Below are positions 2,321 to 23,565 of a stretch of 23,983 bases of DNA, in pieces. A program made the position numbers and the translations under genes. Position 1 is the stretch's first letter; each line of letters opens with the position of its first letter. The stretch is taken from the IMG/VR virus record IMGVR_UViG_3300009376_000083, positions 1 through 23,983 of that record. One strand, 5' to 3'. Origin of the DNA: a virus. The notes beneath the pieces were generated by a model, which saw only the letters and a program-made list of their open reading frames with translations, was not told the DNA's origin and did no database searches.

Positions 2321-3265
2321 TTAGTTATCTCCGATGCTGGAAGCTGATTCCACACGTTGTCCACATTCCTGACGGAAGAGGCCATATCCAACGAGGTGGT
2401 ACCAACCGATTGGGTTGAACCGACGCAGAGTGTCAGTCACAGGACCAACAACAATGCTTGGGTCAGGACCAAACCCTGCTGCACGGGAGAACGCTTTAGC
2501 AGCGAACTGACGCCCAACAATTAGGGTTTGATAAACATCGACAGTACTTGAACCACCGTCGGCAATTAGACCTGCACGGGGGTTTTCAATGTATTCGATG
2601 CCATTGAAGGTACCGATTGAACCTGCACGGATCGGTGCACCTTCTTGGTATAGCTGGTACTGGATGACGTCAGTTACCGCTGTGTCTCCACGAAGATCGT
2701 AGGAAACATCAGGGTGAATAATCGCCATGTAGTTACCGTTTGTCCAACCCGGAGCGTTACGTCCACGAAGCTGTGCAACAGCTTTACGGCCTTCAGCAGC
2801 GGTATAAAGGTCTGTAGCTGTGATGGCACCACGGCTTGTTTGGCCGACATGCGTTACGTTTGTACCGGCGTTTACTACGTCGGAAACGATTTTGTCGAGC
2901 GAATCAGCCATGTTGTAGCCAACAATGTTGGCCGCATCAGCATCTACGTTCAGGAATGAGGTTCCACGGACCTTAGCGCTGGTGATAACAGCGTTACCGT
3001 ACTCAGCAAGAGTTACGGTTACTGCACTATCTGTCAATGCAACAGCAGTTACATCGGCAGCTTCAGTGAGTGCTGTAGTTGCCTGCGCCATGTCAGCGTA
3101 GAACGTGAATTGTACGCCCGAACCGTTATGGCTCTGGGCTGTTGACCTGACATCAGCGATCATTTCGAACAACGGTTGCGAACGCAAAGCGAAATACGCA
3201 ACCTGATCGAACGCCGTTTTTACCTGATCGTCAAGCGTTGCGGTTGTTACTGTAGGTGTTGCCAC
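2321..3265 (-). CDS. Major capsid protein, N4-gp56 type HK97 fold
   Basis: This builds the icosahedral shell. I choose the GTG start at 3265 (protein MATPTVTTATLDDQVKT, 314 aa) because AAGGA lies 8 bases upstream. An alternative TTG at 3292 would add nine residues that do not fit the family. Recognisable family landmarks in order are AYFALRSQPLFEMIADVR, a TALTEAADVTAVALTDS segment, TVTLAEYGNAVITSAKVRG, DADAANIVGYNMADSLD, a KAVAQLRGRNAPG stretch, AIIHPDVSYDLRGD, and the C-terminal RRFNPIGWYHLVGYG and VESASSIG. This is the pattern of the N4-gp56 capsid family as found in many actinophages (from memory). Scaffold gene directly upstream and a strong hairpin directly downstream agree with the assignment. 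Confidence 0.93.
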   Translation of the reverse strand: MATPTVTTATLDDQVKTAFDQVAYFALRSQPLFEMIADVRSTAQSHNGSGVQFTFYADMAQATTALTEAADVTAVALTDSAVTVTLAEYGNAVITSAKVRGTSFLNVDADAANIVGYNMADSLDKIVSDVVNAGTNVTHVGQTSRGAITATDLYTAAEGRKAVAQLRGRNAPGWTNGNYMAIIHPDVSYDLRGDTAVTDVIQYQLYQEGAPIRAGSIGTFNGIEYIENPRAGLIADGGSSTVDVYQTLIVGRQFAAKAFSRAAGFGPDPSIVVGPVTDTLRRFNPIGWYHLVGYGLFRQECGQRVESASSIGDN

Positions 3266-3309
3266 TCTTGAAGTCCTTAGTAGGGACTCCAATAGTTAAG
3301 AGTTACAGA

Positions 3310-7033: not shown

Positions 7034-8368
7034 CTACCTTTGCATAGCTCTCAGCAAAGAAGACCGTGCAGTTCTTTCATTAGTTTTAGCAATTTCATCT
7101 GCGTACTCGTTTTCGATTTCGCTTATATATTTCGCTGAATATTCTGCTTGCGATGGCTGACCTTGCCCAGACATTCCTTTATCCATTTGAACTTCTCTGG
7201 TCCACGTATCTGCTAACACAAAGAAAGCTTCATCCGGGGCACGACCAGTCAACTCTCGGTAAACGCTTTCCGCAAGAGCATCACTGTATTCTTTCGTGAC
7301 AGTTTTTACCGCACCTAAAGCAACAGCTTCATCAAACAAATAATCTGTTAGATCTTTCATTGACATAGCTTGACGATTCTTACCGAATTGTCCCGATTGC
7401 CAAGGGTCTTCAAATCCAAGCTCTGCTTCCGTCAAAGCCGGAATCATATCTAGGGTTTCAAACCCAGTGGACATTGGGTGATCTTTCAACAAACTTGCTT
7501 GAAGAGCAGCATCTTCTTGGATAGTTGATAATGCAATGAATACAGAATCCCGGTCGTATATCAACTCCGGGGTATTCATTATTAGTTTCCTTAAATTAGG
7601 ATCTTTCATCATCGTTGGCACAAGACTTTCAGCAATCAATCTTTGTGCTCTGGGAGATTGTTGATCGTAAAGATTCAATCCATCTTTAATAGTGAACGGT
7701 CGGTCTTCTTCAACCATTCGACGAAACTCGAAACCTTTTTGTTCCATGTCTCTATCTACTTTGGTTGCCGTTCCGATCATCAGTTCATCACTTTCGAGAC
7801 TGAATCCCGGTGCAAAAACACCAAAGTATGGTTCATCTTTTAACCCAAGTGTGCCTGCTGGGACAACACCCTGCATAATCATGGAACCGCTACGACCAAG
7901 GGGATCAAAGCCAGTTGTGACAACATCTCCCCCTCCCGGCTGATTAACAAACTCTATATCAGTAATTAAAGCCTCATTTCGAGGGGGACTAGCTGGCGGC
8001 ACAGCGCCCATCAATAGAGCTTGTGCGTCTTCGGGAGTCAACTGACCATCAAGAACTCGGTTTTCAAGCCATTCCTGAATATCGGCTGGTTCTCTTCCTC
8101 CCGGTTCTTCTGGCTGAGGATCAGTTGCTTGTTCTATCGCAGCTAACGACGAGTCATCTGACACTTCTTCCGTCTGGGGTGTAGGCTGCGTATTTCTCTG
8201 TTCTTGCCACCACGGATAAATATTTTCCTCGAAATAATCCAGAAGGGTCTGAACTGTTTGACCAGCAGACGTCGAGTTCATTCCGCCTTCCCAAAGTTCT
8301 TGCTTCCAATTCTGGTCAGGATCGTCAATAAGATCTTTAATCCAGTCAAATACTTGTTGTAATGACAT
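7034..8368 (-). CDS. Virion-cluster protein of unknown function, 444 aa
   Basis: ATG at 8368 overlaps the TAA of the giant gene (TAATG). The N-terminal 60 residues are helical and Trp-rich (WKQELWEGG, YPWWQEQ). An acidic Pro/Gln/Glu-rich linker follows at about 60-95, then a short helical piece (LENRVLDGQLTPEDAQALLM). The middle has a compact hydrophobic region (VVPAGTLGLKDEPYFGVFAPG). The C-terminal half is helical with LIAESLVPTMMKDPNLRKL and a basic end. I do not recognise the family. No catalytic motif, membrane span or cysteine pattern is visible. Its position between the giant protein and the transglycosylase protein suggests an internal virion or ejection component, by context only. 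Confidence 0.7.
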   Translation of the reverse strand: MSLQQVFDWIKDLIDDPDQNWKQELWEGGMNSTSAGQTVQTLLDYFEENIYPWWQEQRNTQPTPQTEEVSDDSSLAAIEQATDPQPEEPGGREPADIQEWLENRVLDGQLTPEDAQALLMGAVPPASPPRNEALITDIEFVNQPGGGDVVTTGFDPLGRSGSMIMQGVVPAGTLGLKDEPYFGVFAPGFSLESDELMIGTATKVDRDMEQKGFEFRRMVEEDRPFTIKDGLNLYDQQSPRAQRLIAESLVPTMMKDPNLRKLIMNTPELIYDRDSVFIALSTIQEDAALQASLLKDHPMSTGFETLDMIPALTEAELGFEDPWQSGQFGKNRQAMSMKDLTDYLFDEAVALGAVKTVTKEYSDALAESVYRELTGRAPDEAFFVLADTWTREVQMDKGMSGQGQPSQAEYSAKYISEIENEYADEIAKTNERTARSSLLRAMQR

Positions 8369-11300
8369 TAGTTACCTGTCCTTAATGTCGCAGGCGCAAA
8401 TTGAGAAAGATTGGAAGTATTCACACTTTCAATATTACTAAAATACCTGTCGTATACATTTCCAAAGTCTGGGAATGTCAAAAGTTGCAAAAGCCCGATC
8501 TCCCATTGACGTGAAAGATCTTGATTCCTTGTGTAAGAAAGTCTCAAATATGAGCGATTACCGGTGGCTTCGGCTCGTGCTAAAAGACTTTGGGCTATCC
8601 CGTCATGCAACTGTAAATAACGTTGGATAAGGGGAATCTCTGGACGATAAGCAAATGCTTCATCTTCGACTATTAATCTAAAGCCTTCCAAAATTTTCTT
8701 CTGTGTAATTGGGTCACCAATCTTATTAAACTCACTAGCCCACATCGGATTTTTGCGAGATAGTTCCGTAACAAAATTTCGTCGCTGAGTCCACAAGTCA
8801 AAGTTTGATTGTGCATTAAGACTTCCCGAACCACCGGCTTGCATTCGCTTATTCAATTCATTGGTTAACGAATTGCGAAACACCCGGTACTCTCTCCAAC
8901 CTTTATTAGATCCCGCTTCATGTAAGAAATCTTCAGGCGAGAGAGTGTCACGTCGGCCTTCTTGTCGTTCTATCTGTGCAATAGCTTTGTTGTATGCGAA
9001 CTGCACATCTATAGCACCGACTTCGCCAGTTATAAATGCCCCTAATTCAGGGTATTCCGTAGCCATAGCTTTATGGTCTTCGTAGTAACGATGTCCTTCA
9101 AGCGACCCTGCTATGACCCCATCAGCGAGTGTTCGCCGTGCTGTAGCTGCCCAGAGTTCTGGATGGTTTTCCATCAACCAAAGATCAGCTACCTCAGCAC
9201 CGTATTCTTTTTCGGTGCGCCAGAACTCTGAAAGGATCGGCCAATACGGTGACTGTTGTTGATAGGAAACTGGTATTGCCAAAGACCGAAGCATCCTCAT
9301 CGAGTAAATCATTTTGGTTCGGCGCTCTACTTCATCGAGTAGTCGTTTAGCTCCTGCTTCAGTGTTCGGTAGAAGATTCCCTTGTATGTATTGTTCGGCA
9401 AGAATATCTTGCAGCACTCTCGCCGCTGTCGCTGCTTTCCGATCAGTGTCAAGACCGGCCACTGATGCAGCGCTCTTTATCCAAGAAGGTGTATGGGCAG
9501 CAGCGTAGCGTTCCAACACATTGCCTCCCTCTACTAAACCGTAAGGGAACAGAAAATCGAGAGACTCATAAATGTCAGGGTTCTGAATTGAAAGTTCACT
9601 TGCGGCAAACGAAACTATCGGCCCAGTTCCCGCAAAGCCACCGATTAACGAAGCTGAACGTAGATTTAAATCGACTGGCATTTTAGAAGCTACAGAAAGA
9701 CTGCCAAAGAGTTTGTGTGAACCAAAGAACTTTGCGTCAATTTCGTAATCAAAGACATTAGGTAACTGGACCATCATTATGCTTTGTCCGTTTTCATCTT
9801 CGGCTGTTGCTACAGTCCAAAGTTTCAACATTCTGAAAACAAACACTGGGTTTTCAGCAGCTATACCGAACCATCGTGTTGTCACTTCTTGCCATGCACC
9901 AAAGAACGGGGAGATTTCTCCAACTAATTCTTCAAACTTTGAACGGTTAGCCAAATCGTAAAGAACATCTTTGGTTTGTTGAAGAGCGCTAGCTCTTGTT
10001 CTGTTAACTACACCTTTGAGAGCCTCGGGGCTAATTCGATAGTTGACACCTTCTATATCGTCTAAGCGATATAGCTGAAGATTTTCAAAGATTTCACGTG
10101 TGTAAATGCTTTCGTAAAGAGTGCCTCGTGAAAGATAATCTTCGACCATTGTCAGATTTTCGAAGATGCCGTCAAGCAAACCTTTGTACCGGTCAATAAT
10201 ATTTTTGCTTTGCATGGCATCAATAAACGACGAATCGGTAACAACTTTACCGAAGTCCCCGATACCGTTGGATGCCCACGAAAACTGACCCCTAAGATCA
10301 GACCGAACTGCGGTTCCTGCCAAGTGACGAAACTTTGGACCCCGCTCTTCAGAGACAGCAGTTCTTCGCATCTGTTCGATTATGTCTGTGCTTAAAGTAC
10401 GGGCAATCAGAACATTCGTAGATTCGTTGCCGAGAGATTTTTCGACAACATCAACCCATGAATGTTCAAAAATTTCTAGTGTGCCGGGGCCACGAAGATC
10501 TTGTCTTATACTGTCCCAGTCAATTACCCGTTGCCATTGGCGACCTGCGTCAGTTTCATTAAATGGGCGCAACTGACGCACATTATCGGTATCACCAATC
10601 CACCGTGGACCTTCAAACCGTCTCTGGTATAGGTCCTCAAAAAATTCCTGCGGAGTGTAAACAGAACTTGTCGCCTGTCGATATTGTTGAGCGAGTTGCT
10701 TATATAAGGCCCAAAAATCTTCGTGCCGTTGGTTTAACTTTCTGATACCAGCGGCTACTTCAACATTCCACGAAATGGGGTTGCCTTGTATTAGGGATCG
10801 TCTTGCTTCATCGAAAACATCTATGGAACTTGGCAAGATACTGTTTGCTTCGTACCCCATTTTTACTGCTAATTCGTAAAGCCCATCCCCAACTCCTCGA
10901 TCAAATCCGTGCCACGCTTCGGGAAGAAGTTCTTCCACATTATTAGTACGCATCCACTTAACAATTTCATTAGGATCATATCCCCCCACTCTTTCTGTTT
11001 CCGAAAATACTTTCGCCCACAATTGTTGAGCAAGATTTGTTTTATCGAGATCCTGTGGAATCACGTGGCGAATTAAGAAATCGTCATACGCTTTAGAAAA
11101 ATTAGCTTCTTCGTATTGGTTCAATATGTCGTATTGGTGAGCGCCTTGGAATTTTTCGAAACGTCTTTGCACATCGGCTTCAGCGTCAAGTTGTGCTCTT
11201 GCCATTGGATTAGCTGATATTCCACGTCGCCAAATTTCTTGTTGCTGCGGAGTGTTACCGAACGCTTTATCTACACGTGTGGACCCAACTTGTGTTGACC

Positions 11301-14300
11301 CGTAACCCCACTCGTTTAGAATCTCTGCTGCTTCTTCGAGCATAGAAATTGGTTTACCCATGCTCGGATCTAATTTCGCATCACCAACAATTTTGGTTTG
11401 ATAGTCATTTACAATTTCGGCACGGGTAGCCAATAGTCGAGCGACTTCGTTGCGATCTTTAATCGTAGTTTGTAGCTGTTCTGCCAGATTTTTTAATGAG
11501 CCTTGTGTATCAAGTATCTGAGTTACATCTTCTGCTTGGATAAAGAACTGTATATCTGGCATCAATGAGCCTTGCATAGGCGGCCAAACAATTAAGTCCA
11601 AACCGTCCACATTTACCGCCTGAAGCTTATTGAACCTATGTTCGATAATAAGTTGGGTTAAATATGAGCTTCTGCTATATACCTCAGTATTAGCAATATC
11701 GTCCCAACTAACTCTGTCACCACGAAGTGGAACCCCGCTCCGGTCGACGCCATCTCGCCTAGCGCGGAAAGCACGCATATTCCTCATAGCTTTGTCAGAA
11801 GCTGGAGTTACCATTGGATCGATGAAATACCGCCCAAAGGGTGTGTCCCCTCTAGCTTTAGCACCTAGTTCTTGAATAAGCTGCCAATTTATACGAGCAG
11901 CGATATCTCCTGCATTGATTAACCCTTCATCTTCTAACAGTCGCCTGTACATCCAAGATTCTGTAGTGCCTGCTTCATTGATCCAACTATTCCACGCTTC
12001 ATCTCTGACTAACCAATGTTCAGCTTTTATCTCTGCTACTTCGTCAAGCGCATACTGCGGAAGGTCAGGATATTGTGCCCGCATAAATTCCGAAATATCT
12101 AGCCTGTTCGCACGTTCAACCAGATCCAACGCTTCTGCCCGCAAAGCCACACCATATGTATCAGCCAATTGGCGACGTGCAAGTTTCGCCAAACTGTCAC
12201 GGCTGTATGCTGTGTAAAGTCCAGCCGCAGCAGCAGCGCCTACCGGACCACCAAAGAACCAACCTGATCCAGTCATGGCAAGAGTTCTTATATTCGCACG
12301 TTTATTTGCGTACTCTTCCCCAATCGCATCAGCTACAAACTCTTCTATTGTTCTTTCAAATCCGACCACACCTTCATCGTGTGATCGTTTATAAAACTCG
12401 ACTTGCTTAACCCAACCTGCCCCCATATAGCCATCCGGCAACTGCTCGACAAGTTTGTCAGCCACCACAGCGTTTATATCTACACCAGCTTTACGAAGCC
12501 AACGAACACGTAATTCATCGAATGACCCACCAAGACGCCCCAACGCCATCGCAGCCCCCAAATGTGCGATATTGCGTAATTGCGAATCTGTGTTAACTAC
12601 CATTTGCCAACGTGGGGTCAACAGTGTGTGACGCTTCCACATTGTTAATGCTTCACGACGTGTCGCTCTAACTATCGCATTTCTGGCACTAACTGAAACA
12701 TCAAGGTTTTCTCCGTTAGGTCCGATAATAGTTTTTATATCGCCTTGGAGTACTTGGAAAAGGCGTTGGAACTTGTCCCACCGTGGCATCACTAATGTTT
12801 GCCGCATTTGGGACGGAGACATTGGTTTATAAATGAATGTCGTTCCACCTAATTCTGGGATTACTACTTCAGTGAAATCACTATTTCCGTATCGTCGTTC
12901 TGTGTGTTCTGCTGCATCTTCTAATAAACGTTTGGCTGCATCAATATCGCCTCGGAGTATTCCTTTCATTGCAGCCGAAACACCGGCGCTTCCCCAATCA
13001 ATATCTTTAAATATTGGGTGGGGGGTTACTGCGTTTATTGCACCGTTAAGAGCCGCTTCGTTAAGACGATCAATTTTGATTGCTAATTCATCCCCATACG
13101 AATCAAGGAACTCGATCATTAGATCATCGACACGTTGCGCTGCTTCTACCCGATCCCGAGGAACAGGCCACGGAGCTTCCGGCGTACCTTTGTAAGTCAT
13201 AATCGCAAGATCAAGAAGCGTAAAATCTTCACCACTAGCTAAACGCCGAGGTGTCTCGGGGGGAGCATTTTTTAATGTTGCTTTTCTCTCACGTCTACTC
13301 ATGCCGGGAGGCACTAAAAGATTGATACGTCCTAATTCACGGAACATAACGTCGAGTTGGCTAGCAACTGTGCTCCGGTCATGGACGTTTATAACTCCAT
13401 GAGGAATTTTTTCAGAGAACAACCTAACGAAACGACTATTCATCGGACCTGCTAGTGGTCCTGATTTACTGAACAAAGTTTTCGCTAGCACCCCTGTCTT
13501 TGTTGACGGTGCAGATGGCAAAGCTTTAGCTAACGCAGGATTCAACGGAGCCATCGCAGCTTCTATTATTTGATCTGCGACTAAAGAATGAGCTTCAGTA
13601 GAACTAAGCATTTCGGGAACTGGATCATCGAACGGAGCAGTTCTTGTCTGCATAACATTTGTAGCTATATCTTCTTTGAAACCGAGAGGGGGGATGCGTT
13701 CATAGGTTTTAACCAACATCCCCACTAATGCATCATCTAGCCCCAAGACTGCTTGCCAAGGGAATTTATCCATTTCCGAAATGCGGTCAATCAATTCCAT
13801 GTAAGGACTATTGGGATCAAACCCAGCAAAATCTATGAGATCATTTGCGCTCTCACGAACAAACCCTCTCGCTGGTGGCACGACCGGAAAGAGATCTTCA
13901 AAGTCAGTGAAACCCATTTCCCGACCTAAAGCATGATCGAACCTAACGTGTTCGTACATATCGATTATGTCGCCAGCTTGACGTAAAGCTTCTTCCGATA
14001 CGTCTAGGCCAAGTTGTGACCAAGCCCAAGCTGGAGCATCTGGTTGTGCTTCTGGTATCCGCATTGTTTCCCAGACTTCGTTCATTAAGTCTTCGATAAG
14101 CCGTTTGCCTTGGACTTCGGCCATTTGCGCTAGGGCACGTGGACTAAACAAATAGTTCTTAATATAAAGAGCGTGGGCTGCTTCTTTGGCTTTAAGTGTT
14201 AGACGTAACCGTTCGGCATTCGCTTTCGAAAGCGCTTCAAAGGACACATTTGTGTCCATTATTTCAGTCGCTTCGTCTAAAATACTGACCTCATCTTCCC

Positions 14301-17300
14301 CGTAGTTTTTATCTTCTCGTCTTACTTTTTCATCGAATTTGCGCTTCCGTATTGCTTCTTCAAGAGCAAGAATGTTTTGTCGTGCGTGTCGAATTTCTCT
14401 AAAGTGCCAATGAACCGTAACTCTTTCTTGGTTATGTCTAATCTTCATCGAATTGGGTACCCCATATTGCATTTCGTCACCCGGTTCTCTGGTGCGATCT
14501 ACAACTTTGTCGATGCCTTCATCACTAAGTTTGAGTGTTTCCTCGAAGTCTCGTCTATAGGAAAAGTCGATGGTATCGGGATCGTCTGGTCGCCTTCTGG
14601 GATCAATCTCTAACAGATCTCCTCCGGTGTCTCTAATACCACGAGGCTCCACAGGTTGTTCTGCATCATAAAGACTTCGAACTTCATCACCAGAAATATT
14701 CCTGATAACAGGCGCTTCGATATCTCGCAGCAAAGACCAAATGTAAGAAAAGTCTTTTGCTTGTGCCGTCATCGCTGCTTTGACAGCAGGGTTACCTTTT
14801 TCTAATCGAATAAGATTGTAATAAGGAAGCCACGAAGAACCGTCTACGGGGCCACCATTAGCTAGGCGTGCATATATCTGTGCTCGCTGCCAAAGCTGAT
14901 CTTTGGGCAATACTTTGTAGAACGGTCCCCATGTAGGCAACTCTTTAAACAAACGTAAAGTTAAACGATCCAAAAACTTTTCAGTTGTATACGATCCTCT
15001 TGCCCCAGCCCAACGATTTTTGCCATACATATCATCGACATACCGGTTCCAATCATCTGGAGACATTTCACCAGCCATCCCCATCAAGGATGATTGCTCA
15101 CCGAGAACCTCTCGATAAGCCTCTTGTGCTTCGAGAAGATTATTAGGGATTGCGGCTCTAACGTAATCATCTATCATTTCGTCGGTGGCAGCGACTAAAT
15201 AGTTAAACCCTGACTGCATCGCTTCGAACTCTGCTGGACCCCAAAGACTTACACGGTTTTCAGGAGCATCGAGCCGTCTTTCGATTGCGCCTTCAACAAT
15301 GATGTCTTCGATAACTTGCCGTACTTGTTCTATGCGTTGTTCTAAATCTGCATAGGGGTTAGGGCTATCTGCATCTCTTAATGGTGCTGTATTTCGTTGT
15401 CGGTCAAGTAAATCCTCTATGACGGTAGTTGCTTGATCTACATATATAGCCCACTGTTCTTGTCTTCCTTCGTTAACAGACCAATCGTCCCCAAACTCAG
15501 ACGAATCAAATGGACGACGAGCATCTTCGTTCCCCCCAGCTTGTCTTCGTAAAACATCTCTTAGGTAATCATTATCAAGGAAATCATCCCAACCCATACC
15601 GGGGAACTGTTCGTCCAACCGTTGAATTAATTCTCTCAATTTTCGAGGCCCGACGCTTCCTCGTCCGGGGTGAAGCGCATTCCAGAGATTATTTATTGCA
15701 TAGTTTTCGCTACCATCTATTTCGTTTAAGGAGCGTTCAATAACACGGTTGAGTTCTTCTGTGAGATTTGTTCTAGTTGTTAATCGGTGCGCATCGATTA
15801 GATTTTCCAAGGCCATTGTGAAGCCAGTATTGCGAACAAGTTGTCCTGACTCTGGTGCCTCTGCGACACCTGTCCAACTAGCAAATCCTCTTCCCTCGTC
15901 TTCGGCACGTTTCAGCGTTTCTCTTGCACGTGCTGGCAAAGGGTTGTCAGCCAAAAGAGCTATGAAGCGTCCCCGTAAAGAATAAAGATCGTCAGCTAAT
16001 TCATGGTATTGCTCAGGCAATACCCTGCCCAAACTACTAGTGGGGTCAATATTGAAGCTGTCGGTGTAAGCACCAAGTGTGTCTTCGATGAATTGATCCA
16101 AGCTTCGTAAAACTGCGAACAAACCCGTAGTGGGTGTCATCGTAACGTCAGCAGTACGCCTGACGGTTTCTTGGAAAGCTTCTTCTAAAGGCCCGTAACC
16201 CTCAAAGATTTCGTCTATTTTTTCGGGGAGCCGATCTAACGTTGGGCCATCAAATAGTCCTTGCTCATCTCCAAAACTTCGAGCATCCCAGTATTTTCCA
16301 CTACTTAAACCTTCTGCAAAGTTATCGAATTCTGCTTGGAAGTCCTCAATCATAGTGCGAGTGTTATCTTCGAGTGTCCGCCACGGAGAAGCACCTATGC
16401 TGTCCGGGTTTAATTCCCAAATGAAACTGGCTGGGGTAGTGCCCCATCTAGGGTCGAGGCTTGCTTCCCCCGTACCTATCACATGAAGAGGAATATCTCC
16501 CTTATTTAATGCAGACTCTAATTCATCGTCGAATATTGTTTTAATGCGTTCTGCTTCACCGACGTAGCTTGTTAATGTTTCATCCATTGTGGATGGTTGA
16601 TCGTCCATCCATTTAGGTTTATACGAATAGTTTTCAAAGAAAAGTTCGTCACGTACACGGCCCGGAGATCCAACTTTTCTGCCGCCCGGAATAGTCAACA
16701 TCTCTGTGACGCTTCCACCGAGAAGACGTGTTAAGGCAGGTGCTTCATGTTCCAATATCCAGTTATGTAACTTTTCACCTCCGATGCGAATATCTCTGCG
16801 GCTTGGTGTCCGCAAAATAATTGACTCCCGCTGTGCTGCCGGACGTTGTGTTTGGATAAACGGTTCCATGTAAGGTCGTTCGCCAAACAACCCGGGGCGC
16901 ACAACACCATGTTCTAAATATGGTCCAACGCTAGTAATTGAGCCACCCGATGCATCGTGAAGATTCCGTGCTCGTCTATTCAAAACCTTCAACCGTGCGG
17001 CTTTTGCTCCTAGATAAGTTGGGTCAGCCGCAACAGCTAATCCGACGTCCAGAACCCCAGACGTTATGTAATACATATTTGTTTCTTTGAACTCTTTGAG
17101 TTCTTCAGGATTGTAAATATTTACACCGTTTAACGCCAGCGTCATTGCTTGACCGGGTGAACGGTGCTGTGTCAAATTCCATGCTTCACGCCACGTCGTC
17201 GGATCAAATGTCCGGTGATTAAACGGGAGCCAACCGTTCATGCTTGCTACACGGGGATCTACTTCTCCAGACCGGATAGCTTGCAAATATTTACTTTGTT

Positions 17301-17688
17301 CAAAACTAAGTTGATTCAGGTTAGCGATAGTGGCAAGAGTCGCAACGGGACGAGCAATCCCATATGTCCATGTGAAATCCAACCCACTGAGCATCAAGTT
17401 CCACTGGTCGGCCCCCAGTTCTTTTCTTACGTCTTCAGGTATCGCTCCTACAGTTGCCCCGATAATACCTTCCGGTCCCATTGTTGCACCTATAAGGCTG
17501 CGTTCGGCTGTTCCCGTGCCGGAAGGTTTCCCTAAAACGTTATCTTCCCACGATTCTATGAAACCTTCGACAACACCAAACTCGTCATCCCCCAATGCAC
17601 TAATACCATCAACAAAAAAGTCCGCAGCTTGTATCCCTATATCAGGGATATTGCGGAATATCTTCCAGACCCGACTACCGAAACTCAT
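8368..17688 (-). CDS. Giant virion-associated protein, 3106 aa
   Basis: One uninterrupted frame of 9321 bases, 39 percent of the window. ATG at 17688 overlaps the TGA of the 132-aa gene (ATGA). The protein is mostly helical and charged. Hydrophobic glycine-rich stretches occur near residues 65-85 (SLIGATMGPEGIIGATVGA) and about 1804-1828 (FFGGPVGAAAAAGLYTAYS). Two blocks recall other giant phage proteins from memory: KRHTLLTPRWQMVVN followed by SQLRNIAHLG near 1680-1705, and EISPFFGAWQEVTTRWFGIA near 2585-2605. I found no HExxH, Walker or RNA polymerase motif set. Position between portal and scaffold, and size like the giant ejected proteins of some podoviruses, suggest a protein packed in the capsid and delivered with DNA, possibly membrane-interacting. 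The function is inference. Confidence 0.8.
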   Translation of the reverse strand: MSFGSRVWKIFRNIPDIGIQAADFFVDGISALGDDEFGVVEGFIESWEDNVLGKPSGTGTAERSLIGATMGPEGIIGATVGAIPEDVRKELGADQWNLMLSGLDFTWTYGIARPVATLATIANLNQLSFEQSKYLQAIRSGEVDPRVASMNGWLPFNHRTFDPTTWREAWNLTQHRSPGQAMTLALNGVNIYNPEELKEFKETNMYYITSGVLDVGLAVAADPTYLGAKAARLKVLNRRARNLHDASGGSITSVGPYLEHGVVRPGLFGERPYMEPFIQTQRPAAQRESIILRTPSRRDIRIGGEKLHNWILEHEAPALTRLLGGSVTEMLTIPGGRKVGSPGRVRDELFFENYSYKPKWMDDQPSTMDETLTSYVGEAERIKTIFDDELESALNKGDIPLHVIGTGEASLDPRWGTTPASFIWELNPDSIGASPWRTLEDNTRTMIEDFQAEFDNFAEGLSSGKYWDARSFGDEQGLFDGPTLDRLPEKIDEIFEGYGPLEEAFQETVRRTADVTMTPTTGLFAVLRSLDQFIEDTLGAYTDSFNIDPTSSLGRVLPEQYHELADDLYSLRGRFIALLADNPLPARARETLKRAEDEGRGFASWTGVAEAPESGQLVRNTGFTMALENLIDAHRLTTRTNLTEELNRVIERSLNEIDGSENYAINNLWNALHPGRGSVGPRKLRELIQRLDEQFPGMGWDDFLDNDYLRDVLRRQAGGNEDARRPFDSSEFGDDWSVNEGRQEQWAIYVDQATTVIEDLLDRQRNTAPLRDADSPNPYADLEQRIEQVRQVIEDIIVEGAIERRLDAPENRVSLWGPAEFEAMQSGFNYLVAATDEMIDDYVRAAIPNNLLEAQEAYREVLGEQSSLMGMAGEMSPDDWNRYVDDMYGKNRWAGARGSYTTEKFLDRLTLRLFKELPTWGPFYKVLPKDQLWQRAQIYARLANGGPVDGSSWLPYYNLIRLEKGNPAVKAAMTAQAKDFSYIWSLLRDIEAPVIRNISGDEVRSLYDAEQPVEPRGIRDTGGDLLEIDPRRRPDDPDTIDFSYRRDFEETLKLSDEGIDKVVDRTREPGDEMQYGVPNSMKIRHNQERVTVHWHFREIRHARQNILALEEAIRKRKFDEKVRREDKNYGEDEVSILDEATEIMDTNVSFEALSKANAERLRLTLKAKEAAHALYIKNYLFSPRALAQMAEVQGKRLIEDLMNEVWETMRIPEAQPDAPAWAWSQLGLDVSEEALRQAGDIIDMYEHVRFDHALGREMGFTDFEDLFPVVPPARGFVRESANDLIDFAGFDPNSPYMELIDRISEMDKFPWQAVLGLDDALVGMLVKTYERIPPLGFKEDIATNVMQTRTAPFDDPVPEMLSSTEAHSLVADQIIEAAMAPLNPALAKALPSAPSTKTGVLAKTLFSKSGPLAGPMNSRFVRLFSEKIPHGVINVHDRSTVASQLDVMFRELGRINLLVPPGMSRRERKATLKNAPPETPRRLASGEDFTLLDLAIMTYKGTPEAPWPVPRDRVEAAQRVDDLMIEFLDSYGDELAIKIDRLNEAALNGAINAVTPHPIFKDIDWGSAGVSAAMKGILRGDIDAAKRLLEDAAEHTERRYGNSDFTEVVIPELGGTTFIYKPMSPSQMRQTLVMPRWDKFQRLFQVLQGDIKTIIGPNGENLDVSVSARNAIVRATRREALTMWKRHTLLTPRWQMVVNTDSQLRNIAHLGAAMALGRLGGSFDELRVRWLRKAGVDINAVVADKLVEQLPDGYMGAGWVKQVEFYKRSHDEGVVGFERTIEEFVADAIGEEYANKRANIRTLAMTGSGWFFGGPVGAAAAAGLYTAYSRDSLAKLARRQLADTYGVALRAEALDLVERANRLDISEFMRAQYPDLPQYALDEVAEIKAEHWLVRDEAWNSWINEAGTTESWMYRRLLEDEGLINAGDIAARINWQLIQELGAKARGDTPFGRYFIDPMVTPASDKAMRNMRAFRARRDGVDRSGVPLRGDRVSWDDIANTEVYSRSSYLTQLIIEHRFNKLQAVNVDGLDLIVWPPMQGSLMPDIQFFIQAEDVTQILDTQGSLKNLAEQLQTTIKDRNEVARLLATRAEIVNDYQTKIVGDAKLDPSMGKPISMLEEAAEILNEWGYGSTQVGSTRVDKAFGNTPQQQEIWRRGISANPMARAQLDAEADVQRRFEKFQGAHQYDILNQYEEANFSKAYDDFLIRHVIPQDLDKTNLAQQLWAKVFSETERVGGYDPNEIVKWMRTNNVEELLPEAWHGFDRGVGDGLYELAVKMGYEANSILPSSIDVFDEARRSLIQGNPISWNVEVAAGIRKLNQRHEDFWALYKQLAQQYRQATSSVYTPQEFFEDLYQRRFEGPRWIGDTDNVRQLRPFNETDAGRQWQRVIDWDSIRQDLRGPGTLEIFEHSWVDVVEKSLGNESTNVLIARTLSTDIIEQMRRTAVSEERGPKFRHLAGTAVRSDLRGQFSWASNGIGDFGKVVTDSSFIDAMQSKNIIDRYKGLLDGIFENLTMVEDYLSRGTLYESIYTREIFENLQLYRLDDIEGVNYRISPEALKGVVNRTRASALQQTKDVLYDLANRSKFEELVGEISPFFGAWQEVTTRWFGIAAENPVFVFRMLKLWTVATAEDENGQSIMMVQLPNVFDYEIDAKFFGSHKLFGSLSVASKMPVDLNLRSASLIGGFAGTGPIVSFAASELSIQNPDIYESLDFLFPYGLVEGGNVLERYAAAHTPSWIKSAASVAGLDTDRKAATAARVLQDILAEQYIQGNLLPNTEAGAKRLLDEVERRTKMIYSMRMLRSLAIPVSYQQQSPYWPILSEFWRTEKEYGAEVADLWLMENHPELWAATARRTLADGVIAGSLEGHRYYEDHKAMATEYPELGAFITGEVGAIDVQFAYNKAIAQIERQEGRRDTLSPEDFLHEAGSNKGWREYRVFRNSLTNELNKRMQAGGSGSLNAQSNFDLWTQRRNFVTELSRKNPMWASEFNKIGDPITQKKILEGFRLIVEDEAFAYRPEIPLIQRYLQLHDGIAQSLLARAEATGNRSYLRLSYTRNQDLSRQWEIGLLQLLTFPDFGNVYDRYFSNIESVNTSNLSQFAPATLRTGN

Positions 17689-19854: not shown

Positions 19855-21786
19855 TTACCTCGCCAAAAGTTCTGCGTCACCCGTAAGCCAAGTCGGACGC
19901 CACTGTCGATTGTTAACTATAGTCGGCATATAAAGTTTCTCTAAATTATGTTCGAGAAACCATTGTGCCATAACGCAGTCATCCGTGCGTGAACCGGTCC
20001 CTTCAGCATTCCAGCGTGTTACTTCGTTGACGAGAAGTAGCGAATGAGGTCTTGCTTCAGTGTTCTGTTTACCGGGCAAACGCACTCTGCCGACACGCCA
20101 TAATGGAGCGAGCATTTGCACTCCGTATTTGGGGTCGCCTTTATTTTTAGAATGCGTGTAATGAGGGATAAGTTGGACATTTCGTAATGCCGCCCAGCGT
20201 CGGAAATGGTCGTATTGGAGAATGAACTTCTGTGCAGCGTTAGCTTCAATCACCCAATGAGTAATCGGGTGCCCCATATCGTTGCTTATCTGCCACCAAT
20301 CCTCGGCTACACCCGTGAATCGTTGTTGTTCATGGCTCCAATCCAAAAAGGACGGTGCATCCATCTTACGCCGATATGACTCCAAAAGGTAACGAAACTC
20401 TGTTTCGGGGTTATACGCCCAACATTGGATAGCCCAATAGTTCGCTGGAGAGGGATCTGCTGTTGCTATAACAAACATTTCACCACTCACATTTTGTGGT
20501 AACTCCCACAAACCTCGGTCATTATCCCAACATCCGGGGTGGTGTACCCCATCTTTACCCGGTCCGCCGGTCACCCAAAGGGGGTCTACCAGCACATTGG
20601 CAGGGTTTACATCCAACTGCTGATAAAGAATTTCGAATCTATCAGGCGTTTGTGCTTTGATATGCCGTAATCGTCGCCAAGGTAACCGCCTCGGATACAA
20701 GAGGCATCCTTCGGGCCACGGTTCTGCATGTGGTTTGTGTGTTTCAGGATCACCTGAACAAATCTCTTCATAATGTGCTTGATATTTGAGATGAGCGTAT
20801 TTTCTCCATTCGTCTGGAGCGTCTTCTGGGTCAAATTCGTCGAGTTCGTAGTCGTCCGGGGGCGCAACTTTATCAAGTGCGTATCGGTAAATGTCGTCAG
20901 CGGACATTCGCTGTCCTTGTAATACGAGTAATCCACCGGGTTCGAGCCGAGTTTCAGCCACTTCATCCCACCATCTTCGCATATCTTCACGGGCCTCAGC
21001 GGATCTCATCTTTCGTGGGTCGTATACGTCGTCCCATATCACTAGATCGAAACGGCCACCCAAGAAACCAGAGTCCATTCCGAACGCAGACCACGTTGGT
21101 TCTTTTTGGGAAAGGGGTGTGTCGTCTTTTTGTAAAACAGTGAATGCTTCGGCCCGCCAGATTTCTGACGAATCTGGCTTGAACATGCCGAAGTCCTCTT
21201 GCAACGTAGCCTCAGCGTCAACCGCTAAGTTAAGTCGAACATCGTTCAACTCTGCTTTTACAGGGTGCGCTCGATCAAGTTCGGCACGCAACCTGCGGCA
21301 ATACCATTCTGCTAGTCGTTGTGTTGAGGAACCGATCATCCCACGGATAGCTCGGTTACGCACAGTTGCCCATGCGGGTAATACTTTAGCAAAGAATGTT
21401 GATTTTCCCGTACCGGGGGGAGCGTTAATTACGACGTACTCTTCGTATTCTGTCTCCATGAGACCCATAATGCGTTCGGTTGCTTCAACTTGCCACGGTT
21501 GTAAAATAATCCCGAAATACCTTTTGGCAAAGATTTCGATATTATCGTAAGCAGCCTGCGCCTCGGGACAAAGTTCATCATATTTAGGTACCTCCGGTTG
21601 AATTGTTTTGCCGAGGGCTTCTTGGGCGGCGATGTAATTTCTCGGGGCTTTGTCCCCTTCTGCGTCTCGGCAAGCGTGGTAAGAAATGTCGCATTCTTTT
21701 GCTGCGGCATAAAGCGATTTCCCCTGACGGCGAAGAGCTTGGTAATCCGCCCATTTCTCTATAGTTATTGCTTTCCCTGATGGCAT
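19855..21786 (-). CDS. terL: Terminase large subunit, 643 aa
   Basis: The motor ATPase and nuclease that packages and cuts phage DNA. Walker A is at 121-130 (NAPPGTGKST), Walker B at 247-253 (DLVIWDD), and a coupling motif at 288-294 (VLQGQRM). The RNase H-like nuclease shows Asp444 in ATADPS, Glu514 in VIEAN and Asp602/603 in TDDCVMAQW. The first 45 residues (KWADYQALRRQGKSLYAAAK, then ECDISYHACRDAE) resemble a helix-turn-helix, as in small terminase subunits, and may recognise DNA. No separate small subunit gene is seen in the window. ATG at 21786 has AGGGG upstream and lies 9 bases after the cysteine-rich 90-aa gene. Length is longer than the usual 450-550, explained by the N-terminal addition. 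Confidence 0.93.
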   Translation of the reverse strand: MPSGKAITIEKWADYQALRRQGKSLYAAAKECDISYHACRDAEGDKAPRNYIAAQEALGKTIQPEVPKYDELCPEAQAAYDNIEIFAKRYFGIILQPWQVEATERIMGLMETEYEEYVVINAPPGTGKSTFFAKVLPAWATVRNRAIRGMIGSSTQRLAEWYCRRLRAELDRAHPVKAELNDVRLNLAVDAEATLQEDFGMFKPDSSEIWRAEAFTVLQKDDTPLSQKEPTWSAFGMDSGFLGGRFDLVIWDDVYDPRKMRSAEAREDMRRWWDEVAETRLEPGGLLVLQGQRMSADDIYRYALDKVAPPDDYELDEFDPEDAPDEWRKYAHLKYQAHYEEICSGDPETHKPHAEPWPEGCLLYPRRLPWRRLRHIKAQTPDRFEILYQQLDVNPANVLVDPLWVTGGPGKDGVHHPGCWDNDRGLWELPQNVSGEMFVIATADPSPANYWAIQCWAYNPETEFRYLLESYRRKMDAPSFLDWSHEQQRFTGVAEDWWQISNDMGHPITHWVIEANAAQKFILQYDHFRRWAALRNVQLIPHYTHSKNKGDPKYGVQMLAPLWRVGRVRLPGKQNTEARPHSLLLVNEVTRWNAEGTGSRTDDCVMAQWFLEHNLEKLYMPTIVNNRQWRPTWLTGDAELLAR

Positions 21787-21795
21787 ATCAGCCCC

Positions 21796-22068
21796 TTATT
21801 GGCAAGATTCACAAATCTCTGGATTTTCTAAATCACATTCGATTACTTCGTCATCATCAAAAGGATCTACTTCTAGTCGTTCCCCCATCAATTCAGGGTT
21901 CTGTTCAAAAACTTCCATAAGTGTCAGCGGCTCCACATCTACAGGTTCTCCATAATCAAAACAAAAACAGTCATCGGCACAGTCAGGGCAATAATCGCAA
22001 GCACAGTCGTAATGATAGAAGTGACAAATACATTCTTCTTCTTCACAATCACAACCGTAAATAACCAT
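21796..22068 (-). CDS. Acidic cysteine-rich protein, 90 aa, possible metal binder
   Basis: ATG at 22068 overlaps the TAA of the ferredoxin gene (TAATG). Thirteen cysteines lie at 6, 8, 13, 15, 22, 24, 27, 30, 34, 36, 78, 86 and 89; ten fall within residues 6-36, in CxC and CxxC pairs with two histidines (16, 19). The rest is strongly acidic (DPFDDDEVIECD), with a short helix-like stretch (LTLMEVFEQNPEL). Such clustered CxC and CxxC spacing is typical of metallothionein-like or zinc-binding proteins, but I cannot name a family. There is no signal peptide, so it is probably cytoplasmic. It could bind zinc, copper or iron, or serve the ferredoxin next door. Alternatively it is a structural zinc-knuckle protein. 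Function unproven. Confidence 0.7.
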   Translation of the reverse strand: MVIYGCDCEEEECICHFYHYDCACDYCPDCADDCFCFDYGEPVDVEPLTLMEVFEQNPELMGERLEVDPFDDDEVIECDLENPEICESCQ

Positions 22069-22310
22069 TACCCAGAACTTACTTCAATGTAAATACATTC
22101 CCCCGGACACTCTTCCGCTGATTCTATAACAGCTTCCAAATCGTCGTCTTTGAAGTTCGCTAACCCAAACGCCCCACCCGGGTCGTCGAACACATGCCCG
22201 TTTTCTTGCACATAGGCAAGCCCGTCATCTCGCATAACGAAAACTTCAGGACATATTTCTGCACACAACCCATCACCGGTACAGAGATCTTGATCGATCC
22301 AGACTTTCAT
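22068..22310 (-). CDS. Single-cluster ferredoxin, 80 aa
   Basis: A small acidic electron carrier. The opening MKVWIDQDLCTGDGLCAEIC and later AEECPGECIYIE match the [3Fe-4S]/[4Fe-4S] ferredoxins of actinobacteria and of Pyrococcus. Putative cluster ligands are Cys10, Asp13, Cys16 and Cys68, with Asp13 in the second position as in the Pyrococcus protein. Cys20 stands where that family keeps one half of a disulfide, but its usual partner is replaced by a non-cysteine, while an extra Cys72 is present. The middle DDGLAYV and the acidic DFDD-type loop are normal for the family. It starts inside the stop of a 27-aa cysteine-rich gene and its stop overlaps the next cysteine-rich gene. No reductase or P450 partner is seen here, so it probably serves a host enzyme. 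Confidence 0.88.
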   Translation of the reverse strand: MKVWIDQDLCTGDGLCAEICPEVFVMRDDGLAYVQENGHVFDDPGGAFGLANFKDDDLEAVIESAEECPGECIYIEVSSG

Positions 22311-22393
22311 TAGCCATCCATGTGTCCGCAGCAGTCACAATGGTTGCATCTACACGGGCATGACTCACAACTACAATTTAGGCATTTCCTCAT
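22310..22393 (-). CDS. Cysteine-rich miniprotein, 27 aa
   Basis: ATG at 22393 overlaps the TGA of the 60-aa gene (ATGA), and the TAA at 22310 overlaps the ferredoxin ATG (TAATG). The gene therefore fits exactly between its neighbours, which is strong support for such a short frame. The preceding bases GGTGAAGG offer a ribosome site. The peptide starts MRKCLNCSCESCPCRCNHCD and has nine cysteines in 27 residues (4, 7, 9, 12, 14, 16, 19, 21, 22) plus two histidines (18, 24), in alternating CxxC and CxC spacing. This is a metallothionein-like arrangement that could hold zinc or copper ions or an iron-sulfur precursor. I know no described family with this sequence. It is not a secreted toxin precursor: no signal peptide. 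Confidence 0.65.
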   Translation of the reverse strand: MRKCLNCSCESCPCRCNHCDCCGHMDG

Positions 22394-22572
22394 CCTTCAC
22401 CGCCATGTGTGTCTTCAGGAACATATTTCTTGTAAGGGTACATCAATGAATGTTTCTCAAAAACAGAGTCGTGGTTAAACCAGATCCGATCTTCAACAAA
22501 ATACGGACGCACAATCGGTCTAATTTTGAAACCCTGACCGGCACACACTGAAAGCTTAAACTTTGTTCCCAT
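22390..22572 (-). CDS. Unknown small protein, 60 aa
   Basis: ATG at 22572 directly follows the TAA of the preceding membrane protein gene with no gap (TAAATG). The protein is basic and aromatic-rich, with one cysteine. It starts MGTKFKLSVCAGQGFKIRPI, continues through VRPYFVEDRIWFNHDSVFEK, and ends in a Gly/Glu tail (EDTHGGEG) whose last codons supply the ribosome site for the 27-aa gene. It may be a small beta-rich domain. I do not recognise it, and no motif points to a function. Support comes from the perfect fit between two neighbours and a protein-like composition. Confidence 0.6.
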   Translation of the reverse strand: MGTKFKLSVCAGQGFKIRPIVRPYFVEDRIWFNHDSVFEKHSLMYPYKKYVPEDTHGGEG

Positions 22573-22854
22573 TTAACAACCCATATCTTTTCGTAACTGC
22601 TCCCACACTGACCATTGAGATTCTGTCCAGTTATGGTCGATTGTATTGTAAAGCTGAGAACACTGGGCACCATACCCCGTTCCCTGCAACAACGCAGGAA
22701 TCTCAGGTTCCGGGTCAGACCCAAAAGGCCACCACATCAACAAAGCACCAATAGCGGTAGCAATAGCTACCCCAGCAGCAGTAATCGCTTTAATAATCTT
22801 TTTTATTGCTTCTGACCAAGCATCCGCTTTATCAGCAACATCCTCAATAGTCAC
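22573..22854 (-). CDS. Small single-span membrane protein, 93 aa
   Basis: I prefer GTG at 22854, which overlaps the methyltransferase TGA (GTGA) and has GGA six bases upstream, over an ATG at 22890 that would overlap that gene by 40 bases. A short charged N-terminus (TIEDVADKADAWSEAIKK) is followed by one clear membrane segment at about residues 20-42 (IIKAITAAGVAIATAIGALL, then MWWPF). The 50-residue C-terminal part is Trp/Gln-rich with two cysteines, one of them the last residue. The shape fits a holin, a spanin-like lysis protein or a small membrane accessory, and none can be chosen from sequence. No endolysin gene is adjacent, which weakens the holin reading. Confidence 0.65.
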   Translation of the reverse strand: MTIEDVADKADAWSEAIKKIIKAITAAGVAIATAIGALLMWWPFGSDPEPEIPALLQGTGYGAQCSQLYNTIDHNWTESQWSVWEQLRKDMGC

Positions 22855-23432
22855 AACAATTCCAACTGGACAGGAGAAGGAACACCCCATTGAGAAGCCA
22901 TCGCTTCCGCAACCCCCGAATATGTCAGACTTCTCGTTTTCGCTCTATCAGGTGAAGGCCACATAAGCCAAGACTTCTGCTCTCTCCCCCTAACAACATT
23001 CGTAGACCTCAACATTGGCAGATTTTTTAACCATAAACAAGTCCGTTTAAGTTCCCCGTGACCGAACTGATAAGGATTAAAAATTTGGTCCGGTTTACGA
23101 ATATGGGTACTAATCAAACCCACCGGATTTTCTATACAGATTCTGTCAATAGGCGCTTCCATCAACAACCTGACAAAATCCAACGCTTCACGCTGTTCTT
23201 CACGTTTATCAGGAAACCACCTCGCCCCCGACACCGTTAAATGCGTACATGGCGGAAACGCAATCATCAAATCCCAGCCATCCCCCAAAATATCTGACAC
23301 ATCACCCTGATAATGACTATTCAGAGGGTCGCCCTCCGAAGGCAACAAATCGCAACTAACAGCATCATGCCCCCGTTCCACAAAGGAATCTCGCACACGA
23401 CCAGAAAACTCGCAAGCAACAAGAACTTTCAT
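22851..23432 (-). CDS. DNA cytosine methyltransferase-like protein, 193 aa
   Basis: Starting at ATG 23432 gives MKVLVACEFSGRVRDSFVER, the AdoMet-binding opening of a phage C5-cytosine methylase-like family. Asp28 (SCDLL) follows strand 2. The Pro-Cys motif at 59-64 (FPPCTH) holds the likely catalytic Cys62, and IENPVG at 100-105 is the ENV-type motif. Further family blocks are SGARWF, IRKPDQIFNPYQFGH and SPDRAKTRSLTY. At 193 residues it is much shorter than ordinary C5 methylases, and no large target-recognition domain is visible. Probable role: methylation of phage DNA against host restriction, or modification of host DNA. No partner restriction enzyme is seen. The longer start at 23492 would overlap the previous gene by 53 bases and is less likely. 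Confidence 0.85.
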   Translation of the reverse strand: MKVLVACEFSGRVRDSFVERGHDAVSCDLLPSEGDPLNSHYQGDVSDILGDGWDLMIAFPPCTHLTVSGARWFPDKREEQREALDFVRLLMEAPIDRICIENPVGLISTHIRKPDQIFNPYQFGHGELKRTCLWLKNLPMLRSTNVVRGREQKSWLMWPSPDRAKTRSLTYSGVAEAMASQWGVPSPVQLELL

Positions 23433-23439
23433 TTTCCGT

Positions 23440-23565
23440 CTACGAAGGTGAGAGTTTCCCATCATTAATACGAGACTGATTGCCATCACCACGCATCAAA
23501 CGCCAAATCTCTTCAGCCTCAATCTGGGAACGCTCCCTCTCCACAATCATTTTCTTTTCAGCCAT
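23440..23565 (-). CDS. Small charged protein, 41 aa
   Basis: ATG at 23565 has GGAG 6 bases upstream, a good ribosome site, and the stop lies 7 bases before the methyltransferase start. The peptide begins MAEKKMIVERERSQIEAEEI and is a charged, probably helical protein with a polar end. No family is recognised. An extension to an ATG at 23724 would run through the structured non-coding leader and is not convincing. It is the first gene after the 420-base gap and probably the first of the accessory cluster. Confidence 0.6.
   Translation of the reverse strand: MAEKKMIVERERSQIEAEEIWRLMRGDGNQSRINDGKLSPS

Follow-up and report, generated by a model that had tools for sequence, protein, structure and literature searches.

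A candidate metallothionein-like peptide gene overlapping a ferredoxin gene in a phage genome

The window analysed here, a stretch of 23,983 bases from one virus record, contains a reading frame of 27 codons that fits between two longer genes with an overlap at either end. One third of its residues would be cysteine, and the gene that follows encodes a ferredoxin. An earlier note on this DNA had pointed to the frame as a possible metal-binding peptide of unusually small size. The locus raises two questions: whether so short a frame is a gene at all, and, if it is, what its product might do beside a ferredoxin. We took up the first by translation, shuffling, pattern scans and measures of selection, and the second by comparing gene neighborhoods among relatives and by comparison with known metallothioneins. 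The features of the window are collected in Table 1.

Table 1. Features of the window that bear on the peptide gene
Feature	Position	Strand	Evidence
Major head protein	2321-3292		PHROG match
Terminase large subunit	19855-21786		PHROG match
90-aa second cysteine-rich protein, 13 Cys	21796..22068	-	32 relatives, alignment, gene order
80-aa ferredoxin, single Fe-S cluster type	22068..22310	-	Pfam Fer4_15, E 4.7e-19, over cut-off
TAATG overlap (peptide stop / ferredoxin start)	22308..22312	-	Sequence; TAATG or TGATG in 11 relatives
27-aa cysteine-rich peptide gene, metallothionein-like	22310..22393	-	Translation, conservation in 19 IMG/VR contigs, selection
ATGA overlap (peptide start / 60-aa gene stop)	22390..22393	-	Sequence
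60-aa protein, cassette partner	22390..22572	-	None in Pfam or NCBIfam; best PHROG match at E 0.03
DNA methyltransferase	22851-23492		PHROG match

The short frame as a gene

Read on the minus strand from 22393 to 22310, the frame gives MRKCLNCSCESCPCRCNHCDCCGHMDG and then a stop; on the plus strand of the same interval, stops interrupt the reading. The product contains nine cysteines in 27 residues (33%), two histidines and hardly any hydrophobic residue, and its cysteines are spaced C-xx-C-x-C-xx-C-x-C-x-C-xx-C-x-CC. The count and the CxxC and CxC spacing given in the earlier note are thus borne out once the minus strand is specified, as are the locked ends, ATGA with the 60-aa gene and TAATG with the gene downstream, which does encode a Fer4_15 ferredoxin whose start overlaps the peptide stop. 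From stop to stop the frame spans 28 codons, with ATG as the only start codon within it. That the frame is phage-encoded agrees with the presence of a terminase and a major head protein in the window. The window also holds a 3106-aa ORF (8368-17688, minus strand) that takes up more than one third of it and matches PHROG 10618 (unknown function) at its C-terminal end.

A chance origin of such a frame is unlikely, as had been proposed from its exact fit. We shuffled the whole window 300 times with dinucleotide composition preserved and found no ORF of 20 to 60 aa with at least nine cysteines and a cysteine fraction of at least one third. The highest cysteine fraction among the 121,700 shuffled ORFs of that length was 0.26, and the next best short ORF in the real window reaches 0.19. 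Conservation in relatives is stronger evidence.

We scanned IMG/VR with three patterns, CxCxCxHCxCCG, CxxCPCxCxxCxCCG and CxxCDCCG[HY]xDG. The first returned 28 stretches (19 members and 9 cases of repeat noise), the second 22 (19 members and three non-members, L277-L279) and the third 19, every one a member. Repeat noise aside, all three scans recovered the identical 19 contigs; the C-terminal CxCCG part is common to the three patterns, so that a relative lacking that part would escape every scan. All nine cysteines are intact in each of the 19, which answers the proposed test of cysteine conservation. Specifically, the five N-terminal cysteines, which lie outside the third pattern, are intact in 19/19 contigs representing 14 distinct DNA sequences. 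An earlier pattern gave at least 120 stretches, mostly low-complexity TGC-type repeats; L107, L126, L149 and L182 from it also appear in the cleaner scan.

A scan of a genome collection holding one genome per species (84,980 species) returned six stretches, two of which are members. These lie on marine-type MAG contigs titled Chloroflexi bacterium MAG SAT206 (L226) and Gammaproteobacteria bacterium MAG SAT2963 (L229); the other four (L227, L228, L230 and L231) were rejected as cysteine-repeat noise. The gene adjoining the L226 peptide has a match to PHROG 1084 and a weaker one to a tail PHROG, and the genes neighboring the L229 peptide are common to IMG/VR contigs of the lineage called B below. 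Judging from these neighbors, the two contigs appear to be of phage origin and to have been binned with bacterial genomes. When a looser pattern was run against a sample of 400 genomes from the phylum to which the L226 genome belongs, three matched, and the only member among them was that genome's own copy.

The family is missing from the libraries we searched, probably owing to its shortness. The window peptide matches no family in Pfam, NCBIfam or PHROGs, and one of the 14 peptide members reaches a PHROG at a non-significant E of 1.3. There was no relevant match among PDB sequences (one irrelevant match at E 1.2, and none in a second search) and no credible match in 50,697 annotated phages, where two Listeria phage matches at E 10 were rejected. 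In literature searches on metallothionein or small proteins in phages, judged by titles and abstracts, we did not recognize the peptide in any paper.

Another check on the frame is the pattern of substitution within it. For 11 loci, first recognized by motif (so that all have the peptide), we took by position the 24 codons before the ferredoxin overlap, which gave 8 distinct DNA sequences. All nine cysteine codons are kept in 8/8 of these, with TGT and TGC interchanging at seven of the nine. The resulting pN is 0.040 and pS 0.603, a ratio of 0.066, so that the synonymous-site bias the note had proposed to look for is strong in this set; with the cysteine codons removed, pN is 0.066 and pS 0.407. 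For 16 distinct peptide cores pN/pS is 0.146, a value biased low because the selection of cores demanded nine cysteines, with synonymous sites near saturation. In the gap-free core alignment of 14 peptides, the nine cysteines, P13, H18, D20, G23, D26 and G27 are invariant and H24 nearly so; three relatives (L107, L219 and L229) have one tyrosine each. The peptide is held by selection as strictly as a normal gene.

The view that there is no gene here, just a chance frame between two genes, could draw on the shortness of the peptide and on its absence from every family library searched, but we regard it as already refuted by conservation and give it negligible probability: the shuffles, the purifying selection, the keeping of the frame in 19 contigs and two MAG contigs, ribosome-binding sites in three relatives (AGGAGG precedes the peptide start in L005, L208 and L226) and an in-frame fusion in L005 all stand against it. 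From its sequence and that of its relatives, we consider it near certain that the frame is a genuine phage gene.

The cassette and its ferredoxin

We assigned the loci to lineages by letter (A1, A2, B, C and D). Where it stands alone, the peptide is 27 to 42 aa long across the family. In lineage A1 (the window and L002-L008), the cassette lies between a 105-aa gene and the 90-aa gene, in a slot that is variable within the window's phage family; downstream of the ferredoxin in the window come the 90-aa cysteine-rich protein and then the terminase. Ahead of the peptide stands the 60-aa gene in the window, L002 and L003, and a shortened version of 38 aa in L007; a motif search did not find it in L004, L006 or L008. 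In L005 an in-frame fusion places the peptide as an N-terminal domain ahead of the 60-aa protein, the reverse of the order in the window; the fusion and the changed gene order suggest a partnership of the two proteins. In lineage A2 (L009, L012, L013, L016 and L017) the peptide is followed by the ferredoxin, with a relative of the 60-aa protein after the ferredoxin in L016 and L017. Lineage B (L107, L126, L210, L219, L224 and L229) has a peptide of 34-36 aa standing alone, lineage C (L208 and L225) a peptide of 42 aa overlapping a TauD-type oxygenase, and lineage D (L226) a peptide of 29 aa with a PhyH gene 0.8 kb further along. These lineages are not wholly independent of one another, because C and D share a TM-protein gene (by an endolysin-like gene in C, by the ferredoxin in D) and a ferredoxin block is common to B and D.

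Several of the neighbors deserve description in their own right. Other phage contigs, which do not carry the peptide, encode a relative of the 60-aa protein at 59% identity (L282 3001-3177 and L283 2530-2706), located between genes that, by ORF reading, are ATPase/helicase-like and primase-like. The 90-aa protein carries the motif GCDCxxEECxCHFYHYDCACxxCPxCAxDCFCF and stands beside the terminase in 32 IMG/VR loci, whether the cassette is present or not. It has no family in Pfam, PHROG or NCBIfam, and its AlphaFold model has a mean pLDDT of 54; kinship with the peptide (hhalign probability 8%) is not claimed. In all six lineage B loci, a conserved ORF in the +1 frame overlaps the peptide and runs on beyond it (ADIETVIKRL...HIRRAPLLRRRFE). 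For most pairs the synonymous excess is in frame 0 inside the peptide and in frame 1 past its stop, and the ORF could be either a gene starting inside the peptide (at GTG) or a +1 frameshift fusion, both being possible. In lineages B and D the same gene follows the ferredoxin (L286 7010-7683 and L287 5057-5737); it has a thermonuclease-like reading (VVDGDTIDV), the gene order suggesting a shared ferredoxin-nuclease block.

We examined the association with the ferredoxin starting from either gene. A search of IMG/VR for ferredoxin relatives gave at least 599 stretches. Confirmation succeeded for at least 584 of these, and we retained the best 80 loci. The peptide is present in 12 of these best 80. 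Its end overlaps the ferredoxin start codon (TAATG or TGATG) in 11 of these loci, and in the twelfth, L005, it lies approximately 0.65 kb upstream. In the other 68 of the best 80 the peptide is absent from the DNA examined; in other words, the ferredoxin does not need the peptide. By tblastn at E 1e-5, the 50,697 annotated phages contain no match to the ferredoxin, as against the 584 or more relatives in IMG/VR. The ferredoxins of L010, L011, L012, L014 and L016 lack the third cluster cysteine, reading CAEIAP in place of CAEICP, a change that would alter the cluster type.

Starting from the peptide, 13 of the 19 IMG/VR contigs that carry it also encode a ferredoxin of the Fer4_15 type, namely 12 lineage A contigs and the 64-kb L107 contig of lineage B. 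No Fer4_15 was found in the remaining 6: four belong to lineage B, with lengths of 5 to 16 kb, and the two lineage C contigs measure 24 and 80 kb. Because IMG/VR contigs may be fragments, such absences are soft. In the MAG contig of lineage D a 68% identical ferredoxin lies approximately 3 kb from the peptide, and no ferredoxin was found in a search of the L229 genome.

The window's phage family, defined by the 32 loci with the 90-aa gene, offers a comparison of close relatives. The note had proposed that in related phages the interval should be neither absent, nor frame-shifted, nor free of cysteine conservation. Where the cassette is carried, the short frame is indeed kept between its neighbors with its cysteines, and that part of the expectation stands; it does not extend to the whole family, as the peptide is present in 7 of the 32 loci and the interval is absent in 25. 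For Fer4_15 we tested 21 of these 25, omitting L241, L245, L258 and L263; the 21 contigs are all absent from those recovered by the first and third peptide scans of the whole of IMG/VR. The ferredoxin is present in 7/7 contigs with the peptide and in 0/21 without it. Since the two are absent together, the interval behaves as an accessory cassette and not as a chance frame. Fisher's exact test on these counts gives 8e-7, a descriptive value, as the contigs are related and two pairs share peptide DNA. As background, Fer4_15 occurs in 0/38 other IMG/VR contigs, picked by length from matches to the earlier, repeat-rich pattern and not matched for habitat. The peptide is carried mostly together with a Fer4_15 ferredoxin gene.

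Proposed function and alternatives

The packing of CxC, CxxC and CC together with histidine is the metallothionein way of binding Zn, Cd and Cu. With nine cysteines, two histidines and hardly any hydrophobic residue, a metal cluster is the obvious folding route for a chain of this kind, and the peptide likely binds metal. The reading we favor, with a confidence somewhat short of even, is that the gene encodes a minimal metallothionein-like peptide that would buffer thiophilic metal beside the phage ferredoxin. The chain would fold round about three divalent ions (or more of Cu(I)) in one metal-thiolate cluster. Through their overlapping, coupled genes, peptide and ferredoxin would be made together during infection, and the peptide would buffer zinc (probably) or copper where new ferredoxin appears, keeping thiophilic metals off the cysteines meant for the Fe-S cluster; it may also return metal or reducing thiols. 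It is the coupling of the genes and their co-inheritance that point to buffering during ferredoxin synthesis. As for the threat such buffering would meet, an excerpt of a study in E. coli reports that zinc excess displaces the ferredoxin cluster and blocks Fe-S assembly, the protein there being a [2Fe-2S] Fdx of a different type (PMC6495748).

A more specific form of this proposal, in which the peptide is a dedicated miniature metal chaperone that keeps zinc and copper off the nascent Fe-S protein, or brings iron to it, seems somewhat unlikely to us. If it were true, phages would carry a novel type of auxiliary module devoted to metal control. Against the reading we favor, six of the 19 peptide contigs, including both of lineage C, are without Fer4_15. 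Also against it, the genes near the peptide are 2OG-Fe(II) oxygenases and not the ferredoxin in lineages B, C and D. We noticed no metal regulator beside the peptide gene in the window.

Oxygenases of three types (PF13640, TauD and PhyH) are encoded no more than approximately 2 kb from the peptide at L012 and L016 (lineage A2), L107 (lineage B, below cut-off), L208 (lineage C) and L226 (lineage D), with none in lineage A1. PF13640 was found in 5 of 12 records searched, among them the contigs of L012, L013 and L016; in L107 the gene, with PF13640 below cut-off, lies 2 kb upstream of the peptide. We set this neighborhood aside as a functional link, the count in lineage A1 being 0/7. Nor is the nearness telling, because two long contigs carry four or five such genes each.

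Metal buffering and nothing else would leave P13, H18, D20, G23, D26 and G27 conserved beyond its needs. Their invariance in 14 peptides, with gap-free spacing, would fit a folded zinc mini-domain that binds a partner (a host protein, nucleic acid or the 60-aa protein) and in which metal is structural only, for example a host-takeover factor; so would the N-terminal fusion to the 60-aa protein in L005. We consider such a domain unlikely, given that nine cysteines and two histidines in 27 residues exceed the need of one zinc site, that almost no hydrophobic residues are available to build a small core, and that no Pfam zinc-finger family matches.

It is also conceivable that the peptide protects infected cells as a metal or thiol-redox agent with no special tie to the ferredoxin, the two being accessory genes that share insertion spots. 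Lineage C, where contigs of 24 and 80 kb contain the peptide but no ferredoxin, would be explained in this way, as would the lack of adjacency in lineages B and D and the variable slot in the window's family. The co-occurrence within that family (7/7 with the peptide against 0/21 without), the overlap in 11 of 12 loci and the absence of Fer4_15 from all 38 background contigs make this quite unlikely. Less probable again is a peptide that handles iron or Fe-S clusters, either by supplying the phage ferredoxin with iron or a cluster or by acting as an electron carrier in its own right. Coupling and co-inheritance with the ferredoxin, and the iron enzymes near the peptide in other lineages, would suit it; we think it improbable, as CxC and CC packing typifies thiolate clusters of Zn, Cd or Cu and 68 of the best 80 ferredoxin loci do without the peptide.

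If a metal role holds, marine phages would manage trace-metal speciation in the infected cell, in connection with an electron-transfer protein. The peptide would also be a very small natural Cys9His2 candidate for metal-cluster chemistry.

Comparison with known metallothioneins

Under broad functional criteria, a metallothionein is a small chain with about 30% cysteine, CxC motifs and no aromatic residues. The window peptide is small, is 33% cysteine, and has four CxC motifs and no F, Y or W. It resembles the bacterial metallothioneins SmtA, BmtA and PmtA (PF02069; PDB 1jjd and 6gv7) in being small and cysteine-rich, with 9 cysteines plus histidine. The N-terminal motif CxCxxCxC occurs in the 14 aligned peptides and in 7/7 aligned bacterial metallothioneins, for example as NCSCESCPC in the peptide and KCACEPCLC in the bacterial protein. 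Unlike these proteins, the peptide has half the length and is without the C-terminal half, so that the residues invariant in the bacterial alignment, C32, C36, H40, C47, H49, C52 and C54, have no counterpart in its 27 residues. According to an excerpt of one report, that C-terminal half is a GATA-type zinc-finger fold (PMC10612145).

A comparison of profiles gave the match between the peptide and the bacterial metallothioneins a probability of 9%, and of 16.5% in a second run, in which 5 of 200 column permutations scored as high. The shared motif and this weak match suggest homology, which we do not claim. None of the 14 peptide members matches PF02069 or any other Pfam model at E up to 10, in a search where HMMER filters hard on cysteine-rich chains, and PF02069 was found in 0/10 peptide-bearing contigs. 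As a comparison for metallothioneins, 185 gammaproteobacterial genomes gave 5 weak matches, none over cut-off. At best, then, the peptide may work like a metallothionein, and we do not file it as a member of PF02069.

The mammalian metallothionein beta-domain resembles the peptide in having about 30 residues and nine cysteines, with a cysteine spacing unlike that of the peptide. The ligand sets described in excerpts of two reports are a Zn3Cys9 cluster in that domain (PMC10243857) and Zn3Cys9His in a Pseudomonas metallothionein (PMC7387436). The peptide differs from the beta-domain in its two conserved histidines and its fixed non-cysteine residues, and no homology is claimed.

Metallothionein-type genes in phages have a precedent. 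Microcystis phage MaAM05 (MW495066.1; L272 298-519) carries an SmtA-like gene of 73 codons, deposited as a hypothetical protein, that is 44% identical to SmtA (tblastn E 2e-5). It is like the peptide gene in being a metallothionein-type gene in a phage. It differs in being of the full-length bacterial type and in having no ferredoxin among the three features listed beside it.
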